From: Candidatus Delongbacteria bacterium
Lineage (GTDB): Bacteria; Delongbacteria; UBA4055
Length of the DNA: 15,771 bases
Direction: 5' to 3'
Assembly: GCA_016938535.1 (NCBI GenBank)
Contig: JAFGUL010000165.1
Location: forward strand, 1-15,771
Shown: positions 1-9,730 of the stretch, piece after piece
How the letters are laid out: every line of letters starts with the position of its first letter
Numbering within the stretch: the stretch's first letter is position 1
Made by a program: the position numbers and the translations under genes
The notes under the pieces: generated by a model
What the model was told of the DNA's origin: nothing
The model's database searches: none
What the model saw: only the letters and a program-made list of their open reading frames with translations

Positions 1-516
1 AGATTCAGTTGATAGTTTTCGTTCTATCTCGAATTTTTCTTCGCCTATGCTGTTGTCTGTCCATGAAAGATTTGCGCTTGTTATGCTAGTCTGGGTTGAT
101 GTTAGATTTGTTGGAGCGGGGATTGTGTTGTCGTGAGCAAGTAGTTTCGGGTCGGATATATTTTCATCGTAATATACATACACTCTGTATTCATAGGATT
201 TGTCTATTGTAACTGTGTCTGTGCAAGTTAACTCTGCACCGGGCAGGATTTTATATTTTTCTGCCCATTCGCCGGTTCCGGTTTTGCGGTCGAGCCTGAA
301 TTTATAGCCGTTAGGATAATCGCTCTGGTTGATTGTCCAGTTCAGACGGATATTTTCAAGGTCAACGACGGTTTTTGTGAGTGTCGAGACAGGATCGATG
401 GATTTGCTCCAGTATTCGCTGTCGAGAGGGTTCGTATGCTCTCTTTCTTCCGAGCAGGCGAAGAATGTTATGGCGATGGTTGCGATTATTGTCAGGATCA
501 GTATAGTTTTTTTCAT
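1..516 (-). CDS. Fibronectin type III lipoprotein (partial, runs off window start)
   Basis: The 172 visible codons are open to the window edge, so the C-terminus is missing. The protein begins MKKTILILTIIATIAITFFA followed by Cys21, a lipoprotein signal peptide with an atypical Phe-rich lipobox (FFAC). After a short linker (SEEREHTNPLDSEYW) there is one fibronectin III-like beta domain at about residues 43-125. A second begins at about 134, with the typical 'P.NL......T..NLSWTDNS.GE..FEIER' pattern. A GGAG ribosome site lies 8 nt before the ATG. The stop of the Abi-like gene is only 19 nt upstream on the same strand, so some co-transcription is possible. The first 36 residues closely resemble those of the FGE-fold lipoprotein at 7083-8258, so the missing part may carry the same C-terminal domain (inference). 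Role: probable outer-membrane-anchored or surface protein; no enzyme motif is visible. Confidence 0.88.
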   Translation of the reverse strand, partial: MKKTILILTIIATIAITFFACSEEREHTNPLDSEYWSKSIDPVSTLTKTVVDLENIRLNWTINQSDYPNGYKFRLDRKTGTGEWAEKYKILPGAELTCTDTVTIDKSYEYRVYVYYDENISDPKLLAHDNTIPAPTNLTSTQTSITSANLSWTDNSIGEEKFEIERKLSTES

Positions 517-535
517 TGTTTGTGCTCCGATTATT

Positions 536-1207
536 TCAATTTATCTTTTTATCAATACTATCGAAGGCAGATGTGTATTTTACCAAATCTACATCTATCC
601 ATTCAAGCAGTTCATATATATCCTTCCTGATAATTTTCGCATTACTAAAATCAATATCGTTGCCATTAAAACATATCGGTTCGTTATGGTATATCCTGTT
701 GCGAAACAATCTGATATTATTCAGTTTGTTGTTAATTATATGCCTGTTGACATTTAACGGTTTTTTGGGGAAACAATGAATAACAACTCCGCCAATTAAT
801 TTGTAATGATATTTCTGAAATAAGCTTGTCCAAAATCCAAAGGATAATTCAGCTATAACCTTACCGGATGTTACCGGAATCTTGCCTTTATTACCTGCTA
901 TTGTTTTCTCCGCGTTTGCAACACTGTTTTTTAAAAAATATTTGCTTGGCAACAAAGAAGGATTATTCATAAAGCCGTTTTTTTCGGTTATTATCCAATT
1001 CGGATTTGCAAAATGCGACGATATCTGGTAATCTATTACATTTCGTAAGAATATTTCAAAAAGATTTAATATCGGATAAAATGCTTGTGATACACGCAAG
1101 TTCTTCTGATACAATTTCATTGCTTTTGTTTTTGAGTTATTAGTTGCAGTTAAATATCTTTTTAGCCTTGGTTGTGAAATGTAATATTCTAAAGTACTGT
1201 ATTTCAT
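536..1207 (-). CDS. Abi-like HEPN-domain protein (Abi_2/PF07751 type)
   Basis: This is a 223-aa cytosolic protein without a signal peptide. The N-terminal pattern 'ISQPRLKRYL....A..LY..N.RVSQAFYP.L...EIFLRNVID' (residues 10-59), the central 'ELSFGFWTSLF' (120-130) and the late 'RLFRNRIYHNEPI' (166-178) are the landmarks of the Abi-like family. R169-x4-H174 is the HEPN ribonuclease signature. Relatives include phage abortive-infection proteins and suspected RNA-cleaving toxins. Cleavage activity here is inferred from the intact motif. AAGAGG lies 7 nt before the ATG. The gene is A+T-rich and stands alone between a lipoprotein gene and a small-RNA-like element transcribed in the opposite direction, which suggests an RNA-linked defence or toxin-antitoxin unit. 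The exact subfamily (AbiF/AbiD versus other Abi_2 branches) cannot be fixed by eye. Confidence 0.85.
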   Translation of the reverse strand: MKYSTLEYYISQPRLKRYLTATNNSKTKAMKLYQKNLRVSQAFYPILNLFEIFLRNVIDYQISSHFANPNWIITEKNGFMNNPSLLPSKYFLKNSVANAEKTIAGNKGKIPVTSGKVIAELSFGFWTSLFQKYHYKLIGGVVIHCFPKKPLNVNRHIINNKLNNIRLFRNRIYHNEPICFNGNDIDFSNAKIIRKDIYELLEWIDVDLVKYTSAFDSIDKKIN

Positions 1208-1218
1208 TTAAAATCCTC

Positions 1219-1247
1219 TTGCGTTTTGATAATAATATTTGTATATT
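1219..1247 (+). promoter_or_regulatory. Putative sigma70-type promoter of the divergent small RNA
   Basis: TTGCGT (1219-1224) and TATATT (1242-1247) are separated by exactly 17 nt. Transcription would start near 1254, three bases before the first stem of the predicted RNA. The -35 overlaps the 5' leader of the Abi-like gene on the other strand. Confidence 0.5.
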
Positions 1248-1257
1248 ATGCTTGTAA
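1229..1257 (-). promoter_or_regulatory. Putative promoter of the Abi-like gene
   Basis: On the minus strand TTACAA (1257-1252), a 17-nt spacer and TATTAT (1234-1229) lie about 22 nt before the Abi-like ATG. The -10 is good (5/6) and the -35 is poor (3/6). It interleaves with the plus-strand promoter of the small RNA, so polymerase at one site should interfere with the other. Confidence 0.4.
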
Positions 1258-1340
1258 TGCTTGATAAAGCCTCTTTCTTATCCGTAAGAAATGTAATCAA
1301 GCGTGAGACATTAGACCTCCCCTTAAGGAGGTCTTTTTCT
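1254..1340 (+). ncRNA. Candidate structured small RNA divergent from the Abi-like gene
   Basis: Three stacked signs support an RNA gene of about 87 nt. (1) An outer helix pairs ATGCTTGAT (1257/1258-1265) with ATCAAGCGT (1296-1304), seven perfect pairs plus one wobble and one more. (2) Inside it is a perfect 7-bp hairpin, TTTCTTA (1274-1280) with TAAGAAA (1285-1291), closed by a TCCG loop of the stable UNCG type. (3) An intrinsic terminator follows at 1313-1338. A 17-nt-spaced promoter precedes it. No known RNA family could be assigned from sequence alone. By position it could be an RNA antitoxin or regulator for the HEPN protein, as known for some AbiF-type and type III systems (inference). 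An opposite-strand 61-codon frame (1208-1393, TTG start after AAGGA) crosses the element and ends at the Abi ATG; it looks less convincing than the RNA. Confidence 0.55.
1313..1340 (+). terminator. Intrinsic terminator of the small RNA
   Basis: A perfect 8-bp stem, AGACCTCC (1313-1320) with GGAGGTCT (1327-1334), and a 6-nt loop are followed by a T-rich tract (TTTTTCTTTTG). The T tract is present only on the plus strand, which sets the direction of the small-RNA transcript. Confidence 0.75.
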
Positions 1341-1452
1341 TTTGTTATAGCCGTTACTTTTGTGCACTGTATGTTTACTTTAGATGTTTTCAATTTAATT
1401 CCTTATCTATCGGTTTATTTAAAAGTCTATAATATACGAAGAAATCTTTTTT

Positions 1453-1513
1453 AATGCACTCCCGTTGTGCATTGTTTTAGTGCTTTGCACAATATTCTCG
1501 ATTTTTTGTGCAA
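1453..1513. repeat. Cluster of TGCAC/GTGCA inverted repeats
   Basis: Two hairpins sit side by side. AATGCAC (1453-1459) pairs with GTGCATT (1467-1473), followed on the plus strand by GTTTTAG. TTGCACAA (1485-1492) pairs with TTGTGCAA (1506-1513). A minimal GTGC-TTT-GCAC lies between them (1480-1490). The repeats lie at the 3' end of the short minus-strand ORFs. They could be a weak bidirectional terminator or a protein-binding/recombination site. The rest of 1341-1476 holds nothing recognisable. Confidence 0.45.
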
Positions 1514-1593
1514 TAGAATTTAATCATCTTGTTGACTTCAACGAAATGATCTTCCTCCAATTTTTCAAACAGTTCAATTATTATTTTCTCCAC
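1477..1593 (-). CDS. Short hypothetical ORF, 38 aa (GTG start)
   Basis: Reading from GTG at 1593 gives an acidic, probably helical peptide (VEKIIIELFEKLEEDHFVEV...). GGA lies 8 nt upstream, directly after the stop of the previous short ORF. The frame is open further back to a TTG at 1626. It is one nucleotide out of phase with the 43-aa ORF upstream. Skipping the T of that ORF's TAA stop would fuse the two into one protein of about 82 residues (...EEIRKK-KEKTVEKIIIELF...). It may therefore be half of a frameshifted gene. Family unknown. Confidence 0.4.
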   Translation of the reverse strand: MEKIIIELFEKLEEDHFVEVNKMIKFYCTKNREYCAKH

Positions 1594-1603
1594 AGTTTTT
1601 TCC

Positions 1604-1735
1604 TTATTTCTTCCGTATTTCTTCAATATTCATGCCTGTATCATAGACGGTTTCTTTCTTAGTTTTATTTCTTAAAAAGACTGTGCTAAAGAATTCTCCG
1701 GATTTTACTATATCTAAAAGATCTTCGTATTTCAT
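1604..1735 (-). CDS. Short hypothetical ORF, 43 aa
   Basis: The ATG follows AGAGG by 8 nt and directly abuts the TAA of the frame upstream (TAA-ATG), which is typical of coupled genes. The peptide starts MKYEDLLDIVKSGEFFSTVF and ends NIEEIRKK; it is charged, soluble and without Cys. It lies in the same direction as the DUF234-type ATPase and may be co-transcribed with it. No family is recognised. It could be the first half of a gene continued in the 1477-1593 frame after a +1 shift. Confidence 0.5.
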   Translation of the reverse strand: MKYEDLLDIVKSGEFFSTVFLRNKTKKETVYDTGMNIEEIRKK

Positions 1736-1843
1736 TTAATTTTCCTCTAATTGTACAGATTTCGGTTTAATTAAACATGTTTCACAGCCGTGTTCATCAG
1801 GATTGCCATTTATACTCCTTACAATAGTTGTTTCTAAAGTCAA
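1736..1843 (-). CDS. Short hypothetical ORF with Cys pair, 35 aa (uncertain start)
   Basis: The frame opens with a TTG overlapping the ATPase stop (CTTTGA) and runs to a TAA abutting the next ATG. Its second half, GNPDEHGCETCLIKPK, looks protein-like and has a Cys-x2-Cys. However, the only strong ribosome site (AAGGAG, 5 nt before an ATG near 1815) feeds a different frame that stops after 12 codons. A one-base change there would give M-G-N-P-D-E-H-G-C-E-T-C. This suggests a recent frameshift or a sequencing error. Function unknown. Confidence 0.35.
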   Translation of the reverse strand: MTLETTIVRSINGNPDEHGCETCLIKPKSVQLEEN

Positions 1844-3159
1844 AGATACTTATCAATATCGCCAATATCAAAGCATTTGTATTCAAAAGAATAACCCTGA
1901 TATAATTTTATAAGTTCAGAGCATTTTTCTTTAAACTTTGCAGGCTGAAACCTTGACTTATTAAGCTTAACTTCTGCGAACAGCATTTTTTTATCAATAT
2001 CATTGACGGCAACAATATCTATCTCGTTCTGATTCCCTTTTTCCCAGTAATTGCCGACCTTTCCAAATTCTCCGGTATCGGTTATCAGATCGCTGAAAAG
2101 TTTTTCAAGTATTTTTCCTGAATAAGTCGAAATATCTCTATTAATCACTTTTTTAATGTATTCAAAATTTCCGCCTTCGACCGATGATGAATATTTGAAT
2201 ATAAACCTAAACCAGAATTTGAGAAAATTATCTTTGATATAATATTTGGTTGTTCTTGAGTTCTTTTTACTTCCGAAGGGTTTAACAGAAGCGATGATGT
2301 CATATTCTTTTTCAAGCTTGTCAAGATATCCTCCTACGCTTTTTTCAAGAATTGATTCTATTTCGCTTCGTGAAGTTTTGCTTTGAGAAATAAGCTCGAT
2401 TATCGAAAAATATATTCCATAATCCTTTCCGAATTCTTCAATTAGAGAGTTTTTTCCTTCTTTGATAAAAGGCGAATCCTGCGACAGTATAAAATCTATA
2501 ATTTCATCATAACTAAACCGCTTGTTATTTACAAGAATTTCTTCATATCTCGGATTGCCTCCGGTAAAAAGATAGTGAAAAAATAAGTTTTCGTTACTGT
2601 AAGCGGTGTTATCGGAAAGAATTTCTTTTATTACCTTAGGTTTAAAAGGCTTTATATAAAGTGTCCTGTCGGCTCTACCGAAAAGAGGTTCTTTTTTATC
2701 CTGAAATATTTTAATCATCAGAGAATATACTGAGCCGATAAATATTACATTAAGCTTAGTCTGAAATTTATATTTGTCCCATAATTTTTGTATCTCCGAA
2801 TAAACCGAAGGATTGATATTAAAAAATTCCTGAAATTCATCAATTACCAACACAAATCTATCATTTTTGGCATAAATTAGAAGCATCTCAAAGATTTCGG
2901 CGAATGACCTAATCTCTCCAAAAATCTTTTGATTGGTAAATTCCTGAATCTGCTCGGCAAATTCTCCGCAAAGCAGATTTTCAGCCTTCTTGGCAATAAA
3001 AAAATATAAATGCTTTTTCTTTTCAGCAAAGTTTCTTACAAGCAAAGTTTTACCGACTCGTCTTCTGCCTGTAACAACCGTAAGCTTTCCGTATTCCGTA
3101 CTCTGTGAATAAAGGCTTTCAAGTATCCTTAGTTCTTCTTCCCTATCGTAAAACTTCAT
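1840..3159 (-). CDS. AAA-type ATPase, ATPase_2/DUF234 family
   Basis: A 439-aa cytosolic protein. Walker A is GRRRVGKT (31-38) and Walker B is FVLVIDEF (102-109), followed by a sensor-like 'VIFIGSVYSLM'. This is the classic PF01637 layout, common in archaea and anaerobic bacteria. The C-terminus is DUF234-like: 'KYYIKDNFLKFWFRFIF', then NEIDIVA (378-384) and FAEVK (394-398). Together these look like the D...ExK core of a restriction-endonuclease-like fold. The physiological role of the family is unsettled, with links to mobile DNA and defence. The start at 3159 is chosen because GGAGG lies 7 nt upstream; an in-frame ATG 15 codons earlier lies almost on the promoter. Three short ORFs follow directly downstream. 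Confidence 0.88.
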   Translation of the reverse strand: MKFYDREEELRILESLYSQSTEYGKLTVVTGRRRVGKTLLVRNFAEKKKHLYFFIAKKAENLLCGEFAEQIQEFTNQKIFGEIRSFAEIFEMLLIYAKNDRFVLVIDEFQEFFNINPSVYSEIQKLWDKYKFQTKLNVIFIGSVYSLMIKIFQDKKEPLFGRADRTLYIKPFKPKVIKEILSDNTAYSNENLFFHYLFTGGNPRYEEILVNNKRFSYDEIIDFILSQDSPFIKEGKNSLIEEFGKDYGIYFSIIELISQSKTSRSEIESILEKSVGGYLDKLEKEYDIIASVKPFGSKKNSRTTKYYIKDNFLKFWFRFIFKYSSSVEGGNFEYIKKVINRDISTYSGKILEKLFSDLITDTGEFGKVGNYWEKGNQNEIDIVAVNDIDKKMLFAEVKLNKSRFQPAKFKEKCSELIKLYQGYSFEYKCFDIGDIDKYL

Positions 3160-3160
3160 A

Positions 3161-3193
3161 TTGCAACCTCCATTACTGTAACTGCTGTTGCAA
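3161..3193. repeat. Inverted repeat in the 5' leader of the ATPase gene
   Basis: TTGCAAC (3161-3167) and GTTGCAA (3187-3193) form a perfect 7-bp inverted repeat around a 19-nt loop. One arm overlaps the end of the GGAGG ribosome site and the other touches the likely transcription start. It could be an operator or an RNA hairpin that masks the ribosome site. Confidence 0.45.
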
Positions 3194-3194
3194 T

Positions 3195-3223
3195 AATATA
3201 ACACTATTTAGATTTAAATCCAA
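3195..3223 (-). promoter_or_regulatory. Promoter of the DUF234-type ATPase gene
   Basis: On the minus strand TTGGAT (3223-3218), a 17-nt spacer and TATATT (3200-3195) are followed by a leader of about 30 nt before the ATG at 3159. This marks the ATPase as a unit separate from the upstream envelope genes. Confidence 0.55.
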
Positions 3224-3242
3224 CAATTTTATTCTTTTTTTT

Positions 3243-5045
3243 TTAAAAACTAATCTTGAAGTCTGCGAGCTTGATTCTGTCCTCGGTTCTCATGCTGTCG
3301 GGCTGCCATGCTCTCACATAGATCTTCGGTTCTTTTATGTTGCGCAGGTCCATGAGCAGAAAGAGATAGCCTTCGTCACTGTAATTGGTAGAATTGTAAT
3401 ACTGCTTGATCTCTAGAGCATAAACCTTCTGCCTGTTCTTTTTCTCGACGGTGTTATCTTCGAAATTAATGTTTATGAACTCGTTTGAATTGAAAGCTCC
3501 TCTGAGCCTGTGCATATACTCTTTCTTGCCCATTTTGTCGTATTTGACCCTTTTACCTTTTGCAAGCTCGTCATACATTCCGTCAATCTGCTCGCCCGGC
3601 TTTAGCACCCTGCCTACAATTATCAGCGCGTTATCGGCGAAAATTGATTCGATATAATCGGCCTGTTTCAGGCAGTATGCGGTTTTGTAAAGCTCCATGA
3701 ACTGGACAAGCTGTATTTTTTCCTCGGTCGTGCCGAAAGAATCAGGCCTGTTCATAATATCTCTTACCGCGATTTCAGAAAGAGAAAAAGTCAGTGCGTC
3801 AATTTTATCATCTGTATCGAAAGTGAAAACTACATTTTCGGTGAATTTGGCATCGCTTCTCGGAAAAGTGAACGACATCGGTACTGAACGGACTACTGTC
3901 TGATCGTTAAGTTTATAGGACTTAAGTTCAGTCTCATCAAGTAAAATTGAAGCATTGCCGTACATGATAAGGTCCTGGAACGCAATATAACCCGCGTCTG
4001 TAAAAAGATGCTTCACTTCGTGGTATTTTTTGCTCTTTATCACTTCAACTACCTGAACTACAGATTCAAGGCAAACATCTTTTTCAATGGTAATTTTTTT
4101 ACTCTCCTTTGGCTGAGCGGTAGCCGCAACAGGTTCAGGAGCTTTTGTTATATCTATCGGCGGCCATGAAGCATTCGGGAACGGGTAGTGCTGAAGATTC
4201 TCCAGAGCTTTTACGATATCGTTTTCAAATTTTATCAGATTTTCGAATTTATACTCCGCCCTTATCATCAGCCTTGAAACGCTCTCCGCCGAATGACCGA
4301 AAAGATCAACCTGAGCCAGCCCGTTCCTCGCTTTGACCGAAGACCATGTGTCACCGGTGTAATATGTAAAATCAAAATTCGTTACAGGGAAATCATTATA
4401 GCTGATCTTGAGAATGACATTTTTTTCAGCCGGCTTCGATCTTATATCCGCCACTTCTATTTTAATGTCTGAAAATATCTTATTTATCCTTTCCGGAAGA
4501 GCTACCGTAAGCAGTCTCTTGTCGAAGGAATCGAGCTTCATCTGCCTGTTGTATTCATCGCAGTTGACCAGTAGATATGCCCAGTAGTAATTCTTAAGCG
4601 CATCACCGATCCTGTACGATTTTTCCGCACTCATTCCTGATTCGACGAGATCATTTATTTTGCCAGTTAGTTCGGAAGTTTCAGAAGCCTCTTTAAGCAT
4701 CTTCATCATTTCGTCCTCATCAAGCTCGGCAGTCAGCTTGATCTCCCATGTCGGATAACTATATTCTTTCACCAAATATACAGTGTTTTTTAACAACCCG
4801 ACCGAACATGCGGCAATTCTGTCCTTCTTAAGCTCAAAATTCTCGATAACCGTAGAACTTTTTATCATTGTCGCGTATTTTTCTACAGCGTCCCTTTTAG
4901 CATGCGTAATCGCAGTCTGCTCGGCCTGTACCTTATTTTCGAGATCGCCATGGGTATAACTTGCCTCACCGCTGATCGTCACGATCTTTTCCGCATATAC
5001 CGCGAAAACTGCACTTAGGATAATATAGAACATCACCTTTTTCAT
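3243..5045 (-). CDS. Exported protein, LPP20/FlgT-like N-terminus and NTF2-like C-terminus
   Basis: A 600-aa protein with a signal peptide (MKKVMFYIILSAVFAVYA, then EKIV). Residues about 20-120 (V.GEASY.....A......A..HAKRDAVEKY) follow the pattern of LPP20/FlgT N-terminal domains found in secreted or outer-membrane-associated proteins. The centre is unassigned. A linker at about 295-320 is rich in Pro, Ala and Lys. The last 170 residues ('KKEYMHRLRGAFNSNEFININFEDN...YLFLLMDL....P.IYVRAWQPD') resemble an NTF2/SnoaL-like module of exported Bacteroidota proteins; this is a recollection of the pattern, not a search. An upstream in-frame GTG at 5048 is possible, but the ATG at 5045 sits better behind AGAGG (6 nt). 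The gap to the PEGA gene is 18 nt. Likely periplasmic; function unknown. Confidence 0.8.
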   Translation of the reverse strand: MKKVMFYIILSAVFAVYAEKIVTISGEASYTHGDLENKVQAEQTAITHAKRDAVEKYATMIKSSTVIENFELKKDRIAACSVGLLKNTVYLVKEYSYPTWEIKLTAELDEDEMMKMLKEASETSELTGKINDLVESGMSAEKSYRIGDALKNYYWAYLLVNCDEYNRQMKLDSFDKRLLTVALPERINKIFSDIKIEVADIRSKPAEKNVILKISYNDFPVTNFDFTYYTGDTWSSVKARNGLAQVDLFGHSAESVSRLMIRAEYKFENLIKFENDIVKALENLQHYPFPNASWPPIDITKAPEPVAATAQPKESKKITIEKDVCLESVVQVVEVIKSKKYHEVKHLFTDAGYIAFQDLIMYGNASILLDETELKSYKLNDQTVVRSVPMSFTFPRSDAKFTENVVFTFDTDDKIDALTFSLSEIAVRDIMNRPDSFGTTEEKIQLVQFMELYKTAYCLKQADYIESIFADNALIIVGRVLKPGEQIDGMYDELAKGKRVKYDKMGKKEYMHRLRGAFNSNEFININFEDNTVEKKNRQKVYALEIKQYYNSTNYSDEGYLFLLMDLRNIKEPKIYVRAWQPDSMRTEDRIKLADFKISF

Positions 5046-7082: not shown

Positions 7083-8258
7083 CTATTTGGTCCTCGATAA
7101 ACGAAAGCCAATGTTGCTGCCGTAGTAGCAGGGGGTGAGTTTAAAGCTACGACACGCGCATCGTAAACCGAAGACGTCGCTGTCGACCAAGCTGCCCCCG
7201 CGCAAAACACGGTAAGTTTGTGCTGTGTCAGGCCCATCTGGATCAGTTTCCGTAGTACTTGAATATGTTGCTTCCCAGTCCCAAACCCATTCCCAAACAT
7301 TGCCTGCCATATCGCAAAAGCCAAGATTACTGTTACCGCTCTGATAACTGCCAACTGTCGTCGTTGATCCGACATTTGAATTATAGTTACATAAGGTACT
7401 TGACGGTGCTGTCTCACCCCACGGCCATGTCCTGCCGTCATTATACCTTGCCGCGTATTCCCATTCAGCTTCGGTTGGAAGTCGATATCCTTTTGCTGCA
7501 AAATCGCAGAGAGCTTTACTCCACATATACATTACTGTTGTATCTGCATAAGTAGGTACAGTTCCCCATAAATCGGGATCGGTTGATCCACTGATTGTGT
7601 AGCACGGAGTTAATCCTTCTGCTATACTCCGTTTGTTGCAGTAAACAAGTATTGAATACCAGCTTACCGTCTCCACAGGTCTGTTCAAATCCCCTGTACG
7701 ATATGACGGATTACTACCCATTGTGGTCAGCCATTCTTGCTGGGTTAATTCGTATTTCCCCAAATAGAACGGTCTTGTTATGTTTACAGTGTGGATCGGT
7801 TGCTCGTCGCTGTCGACCAAGCTGCCCATGCTGAAACTGCCAGTCGGGATTTCTATCATAGTCCCAATTGTTGCAGAATTCACTTCACTTGTGTAGCTAC
7901 TGTAATAGGTTGAATAGTAAGCTCTTACTTTGTAATAGTATATAGTGCCAGTCGTAAGCCCTGTGTCTGTCCATGTCAACGCGTTTGCGGCGACTGCTGC
8001 GTAGTCTGTTACCCATGTGCCTGCTGCACCGACCTTGCGATCAATTTTAAAGCCATCTTCACCTGTCGAGTTGTCTATCCAAGTTAGTTTGATTGAAGTT
8101 TCGGATAAAACAGATGTATTCAGATTTGAAGGTGCAATGTTGTCCCTATCCCAATAGTCTGGATCGAGCGGGTGGGTCGGAAGTCTTTCTTCAGAGCAGG
8201 CGTAAAAGATCGCCGCTATTACTGTCAGGAAGATTAGAGATATTGTTGTTTTTTTCAT
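7083..8258 (-). CDS. Lipoprotein with FnIII and FGE-sulfatase (SUMF1-like) domains
   Basis: A 391-aa protein. The signal peptide ends FYA-Cys21 and is followed by SEERLPTHPLDPDYW. A fibronectin III domain spans about 43-130. A formylglycine-generating-enzyme-like (PF03781) C-type-lectin-type fold runs from about 133 to the end, with MGS...DEQPIHTV (144-158), YELTQQEW, GYRLPTEAEWEYAAR (257-271), GNVWEW (320-325), RVLRGGS (350-356) and IGFRLSR (383-389). The two catalytic cysteines of true FGEs are not at the equivalent sites (Leu357 and about Val362); only the later RCA-type Cys367 is present. A binding rather than enzymatic role is therefore likely. The usual GGSW Trp is Leu. The C-terminal loop codons are unusual (see 7113-7199). 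GAGG lies 8 nt before the ATG, and the gene starts 17 nt after the AlbA_2 regulator. Paralogue of the partial lipoprotein at the window start. Confidence 0.92.
   Translation of the reverse strand: MKKTTISLIFLTVIAAIFYACSEERLPTHPLDPDYWDRDNIAPSNLNTSVLSETSIKLTWIDNSTGEDGFKIDRKVGAAGTWVTDYAAVAANALTWTDTGLTTGTIYYYKVRAYYSTYYSSYTSEVNSATIGTMIEIPTGSFSMGSLVDSDEQPIHTVNITRPFYLGKYELTQQEWLTTMGSNPSYRTGDLNRPVETVSWYSILVYCNKRSIAEGLTPCYTISGSTDPDLWGTVPTYADTTVMYMWSKALCDFAAKGYRLPTEAEWEYAARYNDGRTWPWGETAPSSTLCNYNSNVGSTTTVGSYQSGNSNLGFCDMAGNVWEWVWDWEATYSSTTETDPDGPDTAQTYRVLRGGSLVDSDVFGLRCACRSFKLTPCYYGSNIGFRLSRTK
7113..7199 (-). other. Candidate hypervariable region (DGR-like) in the FGE-fold lipoprotein
   Basis: Residues 354-382 form the surface loop region between GGS and IGFR, the place diversified by retroelements in C-type-lectin-fold target proteins. 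Most codons here end in C (GTC, GAC, AGC, GAC, GTC, TTC, then AGC, CTC, ACC, CCC, TGC, TAC, TAC, GGC, AGC, AAC). Codons just upstream mostly end in T, A or G. Adenine-specific mutagenesis of AAC or similar template codons leaves such an NNC pattern. No reverse transcriptase, template repeat or Avd gene is in this window, so the assignment is inference. Confidence 0.35.
7175..7197 (-). repeat. 23-bp direct repeat, copy 2 (codes GSLVDSD near the C-terminus)
   Basis: Identical over 23 bp to 7805-7827 (plus strand begins CGTCGCTGTCGACCAAGC) and read in the same frame. This copy takes the place of the usual GGSW-x loop sequence of the family, so it is probably the recipient copy. Confidence 0.8.
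7805..7827 (-). repeat. 23-bp direct repeat, copy 1 (codes GSLVDSD near the start of the FGE fold)
   Basis: Matches 7175-7197 exactly, 630 bp away in the same gene. The encoded MGS...DSDEQPIH fits the family's conserved N-terminal motif, so this is probably the donor copy. Confidence 0.8.
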
Positions 8259-8275: not shown

Positions 8276-9700
8276 TTATTTCTGTATTACTTCCCAGTGG
8301 CCTGTTTTTCTTGAGCCTACTCTTTTAAGCAAACCAAGATCAATTAGTTTTTTAATATTTGAATAAATATTTCTTTCATGCAAACCTATCTTTTTCGATA
8401 AATCCGATGCAGTAATATTTGGGTTTAATGATATTTCTTTCAGCATTTTTTCTTGAGAAGAAATTAATTTATCCTGCTGTTTATCCTGCTGTTTATCCTG
8501 CTGTTTATCCTGCTGTTTATCCTGCTGTTTATCCTGCTGTTTATCCTGACCTTTATCCGGTCTCCTCATTATTATAGTGAACATTCCCTCAGTTTTGTAT
8601 TCAGGTTCGGGCAATCCCGCTTTCAGCATGAGGTTTCTCATTCTCATTATTCCTGATCCGACCTGCTCTACAAGGTTCATTCTTGTAAAGAGACCAAAGA
8701 TCAGCGGATTTCTGGAGTAGCTTTTGGTTCCGAACTCCTCTTTGCTTATTGCACTTGCAAGGCCGCCTGGATTTGTGATCTCCACTCTGTCGTCGAACAG
8801 CTCAACTATTATTGTTGTACCTTTATCGTAATAGTCTCTATGGCAGAGGCTGTTAATTATTGCTTCCTTGAAAACATTTTCGGGAATTTCCCAGTGTTCA
8901 AGTCTGGGACCAGATCCCTGAGTTTCAATCTCATAGCGGACATCGAGCTTTTTCTTAAGCCAGTAAACTGTCTGAGTAAGCTGTGAAAGTAAAGGTCCGT
9001 CATAAATCTTATCATCAGCAATAAACCTTTTATTTATACCGTCAAATGCCACGCATCGTAAAACTGCGTTATCAAAATATTTTTGTGGATATTTACCAAA
9101 GAAAAGAACCGAACCGTTCTTGAATTTTTCTTTCAGTGTGAGCATTTTAAAATTTGCAAATATCTGATTGTCAGTTACTGTATTTGATATCGGCACACCC
9201 TCTCTGAACTCAGCCATGATCATCTCGTCAATTTCATTTTTTGGATCAAATTCTGAGCACTCGGCTTCATCGAAAATAATCTTCCCTGACCTGTTGAAAA
9301 AATCCCTCATCTGTTCCGCAGTTGTCAGCTTTTGCGTCACTGCTCCTAATCTGACATAGATCGCACCTGAAAGCACATAAGGTTTATCAGTGCCCGAAGG
9401 GACCTCAATCACACCCAGTTTCTTTCCTTCTATTTCAATGATCTCAAGCTGAACATGAAGTGCAGGAGTAATTTCTCCCAAACTGTTCTGAATCGCTGCT
9501 CTTTTGGCATTGTCTATTGTTGTTCCTTTAATCTCGTTTTTGTCATTCACACCAAGAATAATGACACCACCGGCTGAATTGGCAAATGCGCATACCTCCT
9601 CAGAAATTTCTCTCACTTTTGAAGGTACCGACACTTTAAATTCGACATTGTAGCCTTCGCCGCTTTCTACTAATAACTTTATATCCTTGTCTGTTATCAT
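8276..9700 (-). CDS. AlbA_2 (Schlafen-type)/HATPase_c_4/winged-helix regulator, COG2865-like
   Basis: A 474-aa cytosolic protein, often annotated as RecG-related or as a putative transcriptional regulator. An AlbA_2 domain covers about 15-130 (EGYNVEFKVS, then EVCAFANSAGGVIILGVND). An ATPase-like C-terminal region (PF13749 type) covers about 270-365 (EIPENVFKEAIINSLCHRDY...DDRVEITNPGG...GSGIMRMRNLM). Next come a DKGQ and six perfect DKQQ tandem units (382-411). A winged helix follows at 416-472 (NPNITASDLSKKIGLHERNIYSNIKKLIDLGLLKRVG), closely resembling a DNA-binding HTH. GAGG lies 5 nt before the ATG. It heads the run with the FGE-fold lipoprotein, so it may control that unit (inference). 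The ligand and DNA targets are unknown. Confidence 0.88.
   Translation of the reverse strand: MITDKDIKLLVESGEGYNVEFKVSVPSKVREISEEVCAFANSAGGVIILGVNDKNEIKGTTIDNAKRAAIQNSLGEITPALHVQLEIIEIEGKKLGVIEVPSGTDKPYVLSGAIYVRLGAVTQKLTTAEQMRDFFNRSGKIIFDEAECSEFDPKNEIDEMIMAEFREGVPISNTVTDNQIFANFKMLTLKEKFKNGSVLFFGKYPQKYFDNAVLRCVAFDGINKRFIADDKIYDGPLLSQLTQTVYWLKKKLDVRYEIETQGSGPRLEHWEIPENVFKEAIINSLCHRDYYDKGTTIIVELFDDRVEITNPGGLASAISKEEFGTKSYSRNPLIFGLFTRMNLVEQVGSGIMRMRNLMLKAGLPEPEYKTEGMFTIIMRRPDKGQDKQQDKQQDKQQDKQQDKQQDKQQDKLISSQEKMLKEISLNPNITASDLSKKIGLHERNIYSNIKKLIDLGLLKRVGSRKTGHWEVIQK
8471..8554 (-). repeat. 12-bp tandem repeat (six perfect units plus one divergent) in the regulator gene
   Basis: The plus-strand unit TATCCTGCTGTT is repeated perfectly six times (8471-8542), followed by a degenerate copy (TATCCTGACCTT, 8543-8554). 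It codes a charged, Gln-rich (DKQQ)n linker between the ATPase-like and winged-helix domains. The unit is a multiple of three, so copy-number change by slippage alters linker length without breaking the frame. Confidence 0.95.
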
Positions 9701-9730
9701 CTACGCCTCAATAATACAATGATCTTACTT

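Follow-up and report, generated by a model that had tools for sequence, protein, structure and literature searches.

A conserved structured RNA opposite an Abi_2-type HEPN gene in Candidatus Delongbacteria, a probable variant of the AbiF kind of RNA antitoxin module

In a 15,771-nucleotide stretch of Candidatus Delongbacteria DNA (contig JAFGUL010000165.1 of assembly GCA_016938535.1; hereafter the window), a gene for a 223-residue Abi_2-type HEPN protein (536..1207, minus strand), a predicted ribonuclease (RNase) and probable toxin, stands back to back with a structured small RNA of about 87 nucleotides (nt) on the plus strand (1254..1340), a putative RNA antitoxin that we call type A. The RNA is a conserved, covarying unit that stands on its own, it is placed on the opposite strand by the HEPN gene, and the protein is predicted to have an AbiF-like fold. 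We consider it probable that the two form a divergent RNA-antitoxin/HEPN-RNase module that acts in the manner of AbiF and its antitoxin RNA AbiFr, with an RNA of another family and the opposite polarity. An RNA-neutralized RNase is the best explanation because the only clear fold match is to AbiF in complex with its non-coding RNA and because no Rfam family or paper that we found covers the RNA; an initial annotation of this DNA had likewise proposed an RNA-neutralized module, in a subfamily so far without an associated RNA. The pairing of RNA and protein is real, was not found listed in the sources searched and is a variant of the AbiF kind, and neutralization would be its functional step.

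The RNA starts 46 nt from the abi start codon (1207 to 1254) in a divergent arrangement, and its region (1254-1340) has a folding energy of -28.5 kcal/mol, compared with -13.6 +/- 3.2 for shuffled sequences (z -4.72; 0 of 200 shuffles as good). The two nested stems of the initial annotation are both present: an outer stem, P1 (1257..1265 with 1296..1304), and an inner stem (1274-1280 with 1285-1291) within an apical hairpin (1274..1291) that ends in a UCCG loop. They are joined by an internal loop made of the conserved strand AAAGCCUC (1266..1273), in which GC pairs with GU and CUC forms a bulge, and the opposing strand UGUA (1292..1295), which is CGUA in most relatives. An intrinsic terminator with its T tract (1313..1342; hairpin part 1313-1334, 8 base pairs) follows on the same strand, opposite to the gene, as had been claimed; terminator-like sites number 2 in 1.4 kb, against 0.5 expected. 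The type A covariance model R1 scores 61.5 bits at 1253-1321, the window being among its 62 training sequences. Facing the gene, a Shine-Dalgarno-like AAGAGGA (1214..1220, minus strand) lies 6 nt 5' of the abi ATG, and a possible abi promoter (ATTACA-18-TATTAT, 1229..1258, minus strand; 9/12, a consensus match only) overlaps the 5' end of the RNA. A second hairpin-plus-T site lies 3' of the RNA (1452-1474, plus strand).

A protein profile built from 24 relatives and searched against a collection with one genome per species gave 69 loci encoding relatives (29-70% identity, mostly Bacteroidota), and a type A RNA lies upstream on the opposite strand in 61 of them. Its consensus reads GUAAUGCUURAUNAAGCCUC, a variable hairpin and CGUAAUYAAGU, followed in most cases by a terminator, and its core begins 34-221 nt (median 50) upstream of the start of the protein match, which is the start codon in most loci and not in truncated genes such as L067. 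The remaining eight loci comprise six with a second RNA class, type B (L060-L065), one that starts at a contig end (L069) and one truncated relative (L066). Several abi genes that seem broken or truncated in their assemblies have kept the divergent RNA core (L022, L051, L061, L062, L067, L068).

Covariation supports the fold. In an alignment of 62 sequences (60 distinct), 97.6% of paired cells hold standard pairs, 9 of 12 pairs vary on both sides (80 cells; shuffled mean 22.6), and none of 500 shuffles reaches any of five pairing measures. Shuffles can be beaten by related sequences without structure; a control that keeps the relatedness, in which the partner strand is slid by 1-3 columns, brings pairing down to 29-45%. 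Compensatory changes occur in five of the seven modeled pairs of P1 across relatives. The A at 1268 and CCUC at 1270-1273 are invariant in 62/62 and the internal-loop letters nearly so, and the apical hairpin varies in sequence and length. The inner UNCG-type loop of the initial annotation is thus present in the window and not conserved in relatives, for which reason we rejected it as a defining feature. Of 60 type A loci, 59 have 11-22 nt between the CCUC and YGUA blocks (L016, the exception, is a pattern artefact, and L058 did not fit the pattern), and the loci divide 33/16/11 among the frame classes; with inter-block lengths in all three classes, we rejected a protein-coding region. The initial annotation had named two outcomes that would speak against it, a lack of conserved RNA beside homologs and conservation as a coding frame, and the relatives bear out neither. 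The motif TAnnTTTG, which we take to be the Bacteroidota -7 promoter element, precedes the RNA by exactly 5 nt in 42 of the 60 type A loci tested (out of 61) and lies anywhere within 42 nt before it in 44, against 3.9 expected from mononucleotide shuffles. A terminator-like site follows the RNA in 53 of 60 loci, against 1.5 in such shuffles (L059 was too short to count).

The protein, judged by its translation, carries the R-x4-H motif of HEPN ribonucleases intact, as first annotated (R169-N-R-I-Y-H174; RNRIYH at residues 169-174, encoded at 686..703, minus strand). R169, N170, R171, Y173, and H174 are invariant in all 47 aligned sequences, the window included; the protein alignments hold intact genes only, omitting broken or partial ones (L022, L025, L045, L049, L051, L061, L062, L066-L069) as well as intact close relatives. 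Abi2, AbiF, and AbiD are described as HEPN families in the literature (PMC3710099). Pfam Abi_2 (PF07751) aligns to residues 3-178 with E 6e-5 and 23.9 bits, the curated cut-off being 25.6; two relatives score above it (L052, 26.3; L130, 28.1) and one below (L132, 19.6). The top PADLOC model is PD-T4-5 (50.5 bits, E 4e-14), also the best model for 10 of 10 relatives tested, and the second is AbiD, at E 6e-6 compared with E 7e-95 for phiC2 AbiF, which points to a distant kinship at the sequence level. The AlphaFold2 monomer model (mean predicted local distance difference test score, pLDDT, 95) has one clear fold match, PbAbiF bound to its antitoxin RNA (8VZ6), so that the modeled structure would place the protein within the AbiF fold; that a structure family is not listed by VIA-align does not exclude it.

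Two further surveys suggest that RNA and protein are tied together, by more than one class of RNA. Among 395 genomes of the phylum, the protein profile matched at least 20, and 22 match sites were inspected, two of them at contig ends (L088, and L090, which starts inside a type C RNA). A divergent hairpin RNA was recognized by inspection in 18 of the 20 sites with a readable upstream region: four of type A, five of type B (its variant B'' included), one B3, seven of type C and one type C-like. The type B core, UCCUCUCCC...GGUGAYGA, is enclosed by stems with two-sided changes at 5 of 14 pairs. Because type B sequences were chosen first by eye and afterwards with a pattern holding the core, the invariance of that core in their alignment is partly due to selection. 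The class occurs in Bacteroidota and on plasmids of Aeromonas, Pantoea, E. coli, P. aeruginosa, and P. syringae. Fourteen plasmid relatives, taken from among the matches listed, comprise one with type A, five with type B, two with type C, three with an unclassed hairpin (Azospirillum, Nocardia, Raoultella) and three that are unclear; for the plasmid relatives from Novosphingobium, Zymomonas, and P. amygdali, no RNA could be classed. A FastTree phylogeny of the proteins recovers types A (47 tips, support 0.83), C (5, 1.0), and B3 (2, 0.98) as monophyletic, and the type B clade also holds B'' and some unclassed tips; one row of this tree, L087, is a wrongly picked frame, and six proteins were labeled type A without their DNA having been seen. 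RNA classes thus largely follow protein lineages.

Whole genomes tell the same story, with counts that are lower bounds since the searches scored only part of the candidates, and with models R1 and R2 (the latter for type B) matching their own training loci by construction. In all eight genomes picked for a known type A locus, the RNA is single-copy and lies at an abi gene, and none was found in three genomes with another RNA class. Among the eight, G006 encodes two more relatives of the protein, paired with a type B RNA (found by R2 at E 5e-17, outside the training set) and a type C RNA (found by eye), so that three abi copies in one genome accompany three RNA classes. R1 gave at least six matches in five genomes of the 395-genome draw, four of them adjoining a protein relative (one being the genome on which the draw was centered), one at a contig end and one without a relative. 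A draw of 244 genomes at class level gave at least five matches, of which only that in G456 was new, where the RNA adjoins a protein gene with a broken frame (L096). Type A RNA also occurs on a Bacteroides plasmid (L128, E 2e-11) and on a viral contig (L141, E 2e-5). No relative was found in viral contigs scanned with the single window protein; these contigs contained 25 loci 89-100% identical to phiC2 AbiF.

The closest known systems are AbiF and PD-T4-5. According to the part of the study available (PMC12373285), AbiF of C. difficile is toxic and is neutralized through binding by RCd22, a co-transcribed RNA that is encoded upstream on the strand of the gene and has two RF03085 motifs; in PbAbiF, each monomer binds one AbiFr, two bulge nucleotides of which inhibit the RNase (review available in part, PMC12737573). 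On comparison by eye with the type A alignment, the Rfam abiF consensus CCCGCCAAGCCUCUCA...GCUCAAAUCGGCGGGU has AAGCCUCU in common with type A, so the two RNAs appear from their sequences to have this core in a bulged hairpin in common, whereas their stems and 3' strands differ. The proteins differ in length (AbiF 287-300 residues, compared with 223 here), and RCd22 has two motifs where the RNA here has one. PD-T4-5 is described in the available part of its report (PMC9519451) as a plasmid-borne anti-T4 single gene of E. coli, a distant relative of AbiF/D with an abortive phenotype that is counted as toxin-antitoxin (TA)-like, and that part mentions no RNA. It is the best PADLOC match of the window protein, yet a score this low means that they are not the same gene. 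A Raoultella plasmid relative that scores 84 bits to PD-T4-5 (L183:797-997) has a divergent hairpin and strong terminator upstream, and from this hairpin the PD-T4-5 system may also contain an RNA.

Type III TA systems (ToxIN, TenpIN, CptIN) resemble the proposed module in that a ribonuclease toxin is thought to be neutralized by a bound structured RNA. In the descriptions available in part, their antitoxin RNA is made of repeats and shares a transcript with the toxin, whereas here it is a single hairpin on the opposite strand; no tandem-repeat RNA on the toxin strand and no repeat array was found in window positions 1-4000. The toxin ToxN, moreover, has another fold. We found no report of an RNA beside this Abi branch in the literature searched, which included few subscription papers, or in the accessible part of a microbiome RNA survey (PMC8040213). 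Rfam 15 has no family at cut-off in the window or in the 37 loci scanned, covering RNA types A, B, and C, with sub-threshold scores for leader, small RNA, microRNA, and similar models only.

If the favored reading is right, the locus would be a horizontally moving two-part abortive-infection module composed of a HEPN ribonuclease of the Abi_2 superfamily and an RNA. The protein would be expected, like PbAbiF, to dimerize with its R-x4-H sites at the interface, and the divergently transcribed RNA, a bulged hairpin with a terminator, would bind the HEPN dimer and block the RNase. Should the supply of RNA fail, for instance because an infecting phage degrades host RNA or shuts it down, the RNase would be released and growth would stop. 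Transcriptional coupling could be a further layer, given that the possible abi promoter overlaps the 5' end of the RNA. Transcription, binding, neutralization, toxicity, and trigger are all inferred.

Several observations weigh against an AbiF-like module or are weak points of the annotated RNA. The window protein matches the Abi_2 and AbiD models only weakly, comparison with 8vz6 finds no match up to E 10 with a profile or E 1 with the single sequence, and hhalign against phiC2 AbiF gives a probability of 1.3 and no usable alignment; as a positive control, phiC2 AbiF retrieves 8vz6 at E 8e-30. The comparison with the Rfam abiF model suggested in the initial annotation came out negative: RF03085 has no match at E<=10 in window 1220-1360 or at E<=1 in the window and 37 loci, while the phiC2 copy, run as a control, scores 37.6 bits, over the cut-off, on the strand of its gene. 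A search of 198 Bacteroidota genomes for RF03085 was likewise empty, as were its controls, and so is no evidence of absence. RCd22 and the phiC2 RNA lie on the abiF strand and the RNA here on the opposite one. The reverse strand of 1254-1340 folds about as well (z -4.65); because both strands fold alike, the strand of the RNA is set by the terminator and by promoter and conservation in relatives, not by energy. The promoter of the initial annotation was not confirmed in the window: a consensus scan gave no plus-strand sigma-70-type match of 9/12 or better ending just 5' of 1254. In most type A relatives, TAnnTTTG stands at a fixed spacing. No RNA is visible at the truncated relative L066 or upstream of the fragment matches L187 and L189. 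Lastly, some RNAs have no Abi_2 partner. Two type A sites have no Abi_2 gene in view and adjoin homologous pairs of a HEPN protein (PF08780) and an MNT nucleotidyltransferase (L077:836-1717 in G123:C1; L072/L099 in G033:C129). In an 80-genome set that includes all 20 protein-positive genomes, type B gave 12 matches, of which five adjoin a relative and seven do not.

These partnerless copies would be accounted for by a trans-acting orphan or addiction RNA, selfish or regulatory, that serves other HEPN toxins such as HEPN-MNT or persists without a partner, an explanation that we regard as quite unlikely. It draws support from the dispersed type B'' RNAs as well as from the copies beside HEPN-MNT pairs. 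In HEPN-MNT (MntA-HepT) systems, the antitoxin is a nucleotidyltransferase protein, a domain that Pfam shows in the L077 pair and that was not recognized among the window proteins scanned. Against this explanation, the RNA is divergent from the HEPN gene in G123 and co-directional in G033, the near-invariant C of CGUA is missing from the G123 copy, as would be expected of a relic, an abi gene in G033 may be cut off because the contig ends 92 nt past the RNA, and none of 28 other HEPN loci searched carries a type A RNA. The type B'' RNAs that lack a visible abi gene (L177:978-1036 and 2336-2397; L178:903-964; L179:249-309; L180:957-1018; L181:171-229; L182:84-150) number up to three per genome, several with changed core letters, and look like relics or orphan antitoxins. 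Around six of the seven, no protein relative was found in the stretch examined; the seventh (L182) lies 83 nt from the contig start on the side where the gene would be, and close to where another abi gene, itself accompanied by an RNA, has its 3' end. Six of the seven also share their 3' flank, in which a conserved reading frame (seen in four) ends; this frame resembles a type I methylase gene.

A somewhat better alternative, still unlikely in our judgment, is that the RNA controls abi expression and not protein activity, whether by promoter overlap, transcription interference, or an RNA-protein autoregulatory loop. The possible abi promoter (1258-1229) does run into the 5' end of the RNA, and RCd22 is reported, in the part of the study available, to act also in cis on abiF expression (PMC12373285), yet interference alone would leave the conserved internal-loop letters and compensatory stems unexplained. 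We saw no complementarity between RNA and abi mRNA: the only listed RNA-gene repeat, of 19 nt, runs in the sense of the mRNA, on which ground an antisense RNA was rejected. The initial annotation had also offered an RNA-guided ribonuclease, and Cas13 is held to descend from AbiF and its antitoxin RNA. A guide or activator RNA that makes the HEPN protein RNA-guided or RNA-activated, as in Cas13, nevertheless seems very unlikely here: no spaced repeat array, as in type VI CRISPR, was found in window 1-4000, which led us to reject a CRISPR-type guide, variation falls in the apical hairpin and in the tail that precedes the terminator, with no unconserved single-stranded stretch that resembles a guide or spacer, and each of the eight genomes has one type A RNA, at the locus. 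Least probable of all, to our minds improbable in the extreme, is an ordinary cis-leader or attenuator, or a mere terminator region, with no tie to the protein. An amino-acid leader does give the window its best Rfam score (Phe_leader, 27.6 bits), but the cut-off is 55, and we rejected such a leader because its scores are all sub-threshold. Nor does the RNA look like the leader of a nearby gene, because the next plus-strand gene with a recognized domain, among those tested, starts at 9719, and an unrelated leader would not stay with the protein as this RNA does.

With this finding, RNA pairing reaches beyond AbiF proper into a branch of the Abi_2 superfamily that is distinct in sequence, which the defense library used here matches only to single-protein models and whose RNA families are absent from Rfam 15, with the opposite gene polarity. 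The questions of whether RNA control is ancestral to Abi_2 HEPN proteins and whether RNA and protein diversified together become testable, and cloning or annotating these defense genes without the upstream ~150 nt may omit half of the system. A wider proposal, which we advance tentatively and hold to be doubtful, is that the small-Abi_2 (PD-T4-5-like) branch of Bacteroidota, Delongbacteria, Pseudomonadota, and Actinomycetota is one superfamily of divergent RNA-antitoxin/HEPN-RNase modules, in which several RNA families arose beside AbiF/AbiFr. It would then bear on how Cas13 acquired its RNA, and in some lineages the RNA would have been redeployed in trans or beside HEPN-MNT, giving hybrid RNA-plus-protein control.

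The module was likely acquired horizontally. The host is a member of Candidatus Delongbacteria: of the 38 best matches to the window DprA (the best at 95%), five are named by taxon, all Candidatus Delongbacteria (57-71% identity). The best match to the Abi protein, at 91%, lies on a 1.2-kb contig, and the next, at 65-70%, include Bacteroidota, from which, given this host, we take horizontal transfer to be probable. Elsewhere in the window, all on the minus strand, are an AAA ATPase with DUF234 (1840-3204; ATPase_2 E 4e-18), whose best PADLOC model is the candidate defense family PDC-S27 (148 bits), an AlbA_2/Schlafen and HATPase_c_4 regulator with a KQQD repeat run before a winged helix (8276-9700), and two fn3-related proteins with similar N-termini (1-516 and 7083-8258), the second of which has an FGE-sulfatase domain.
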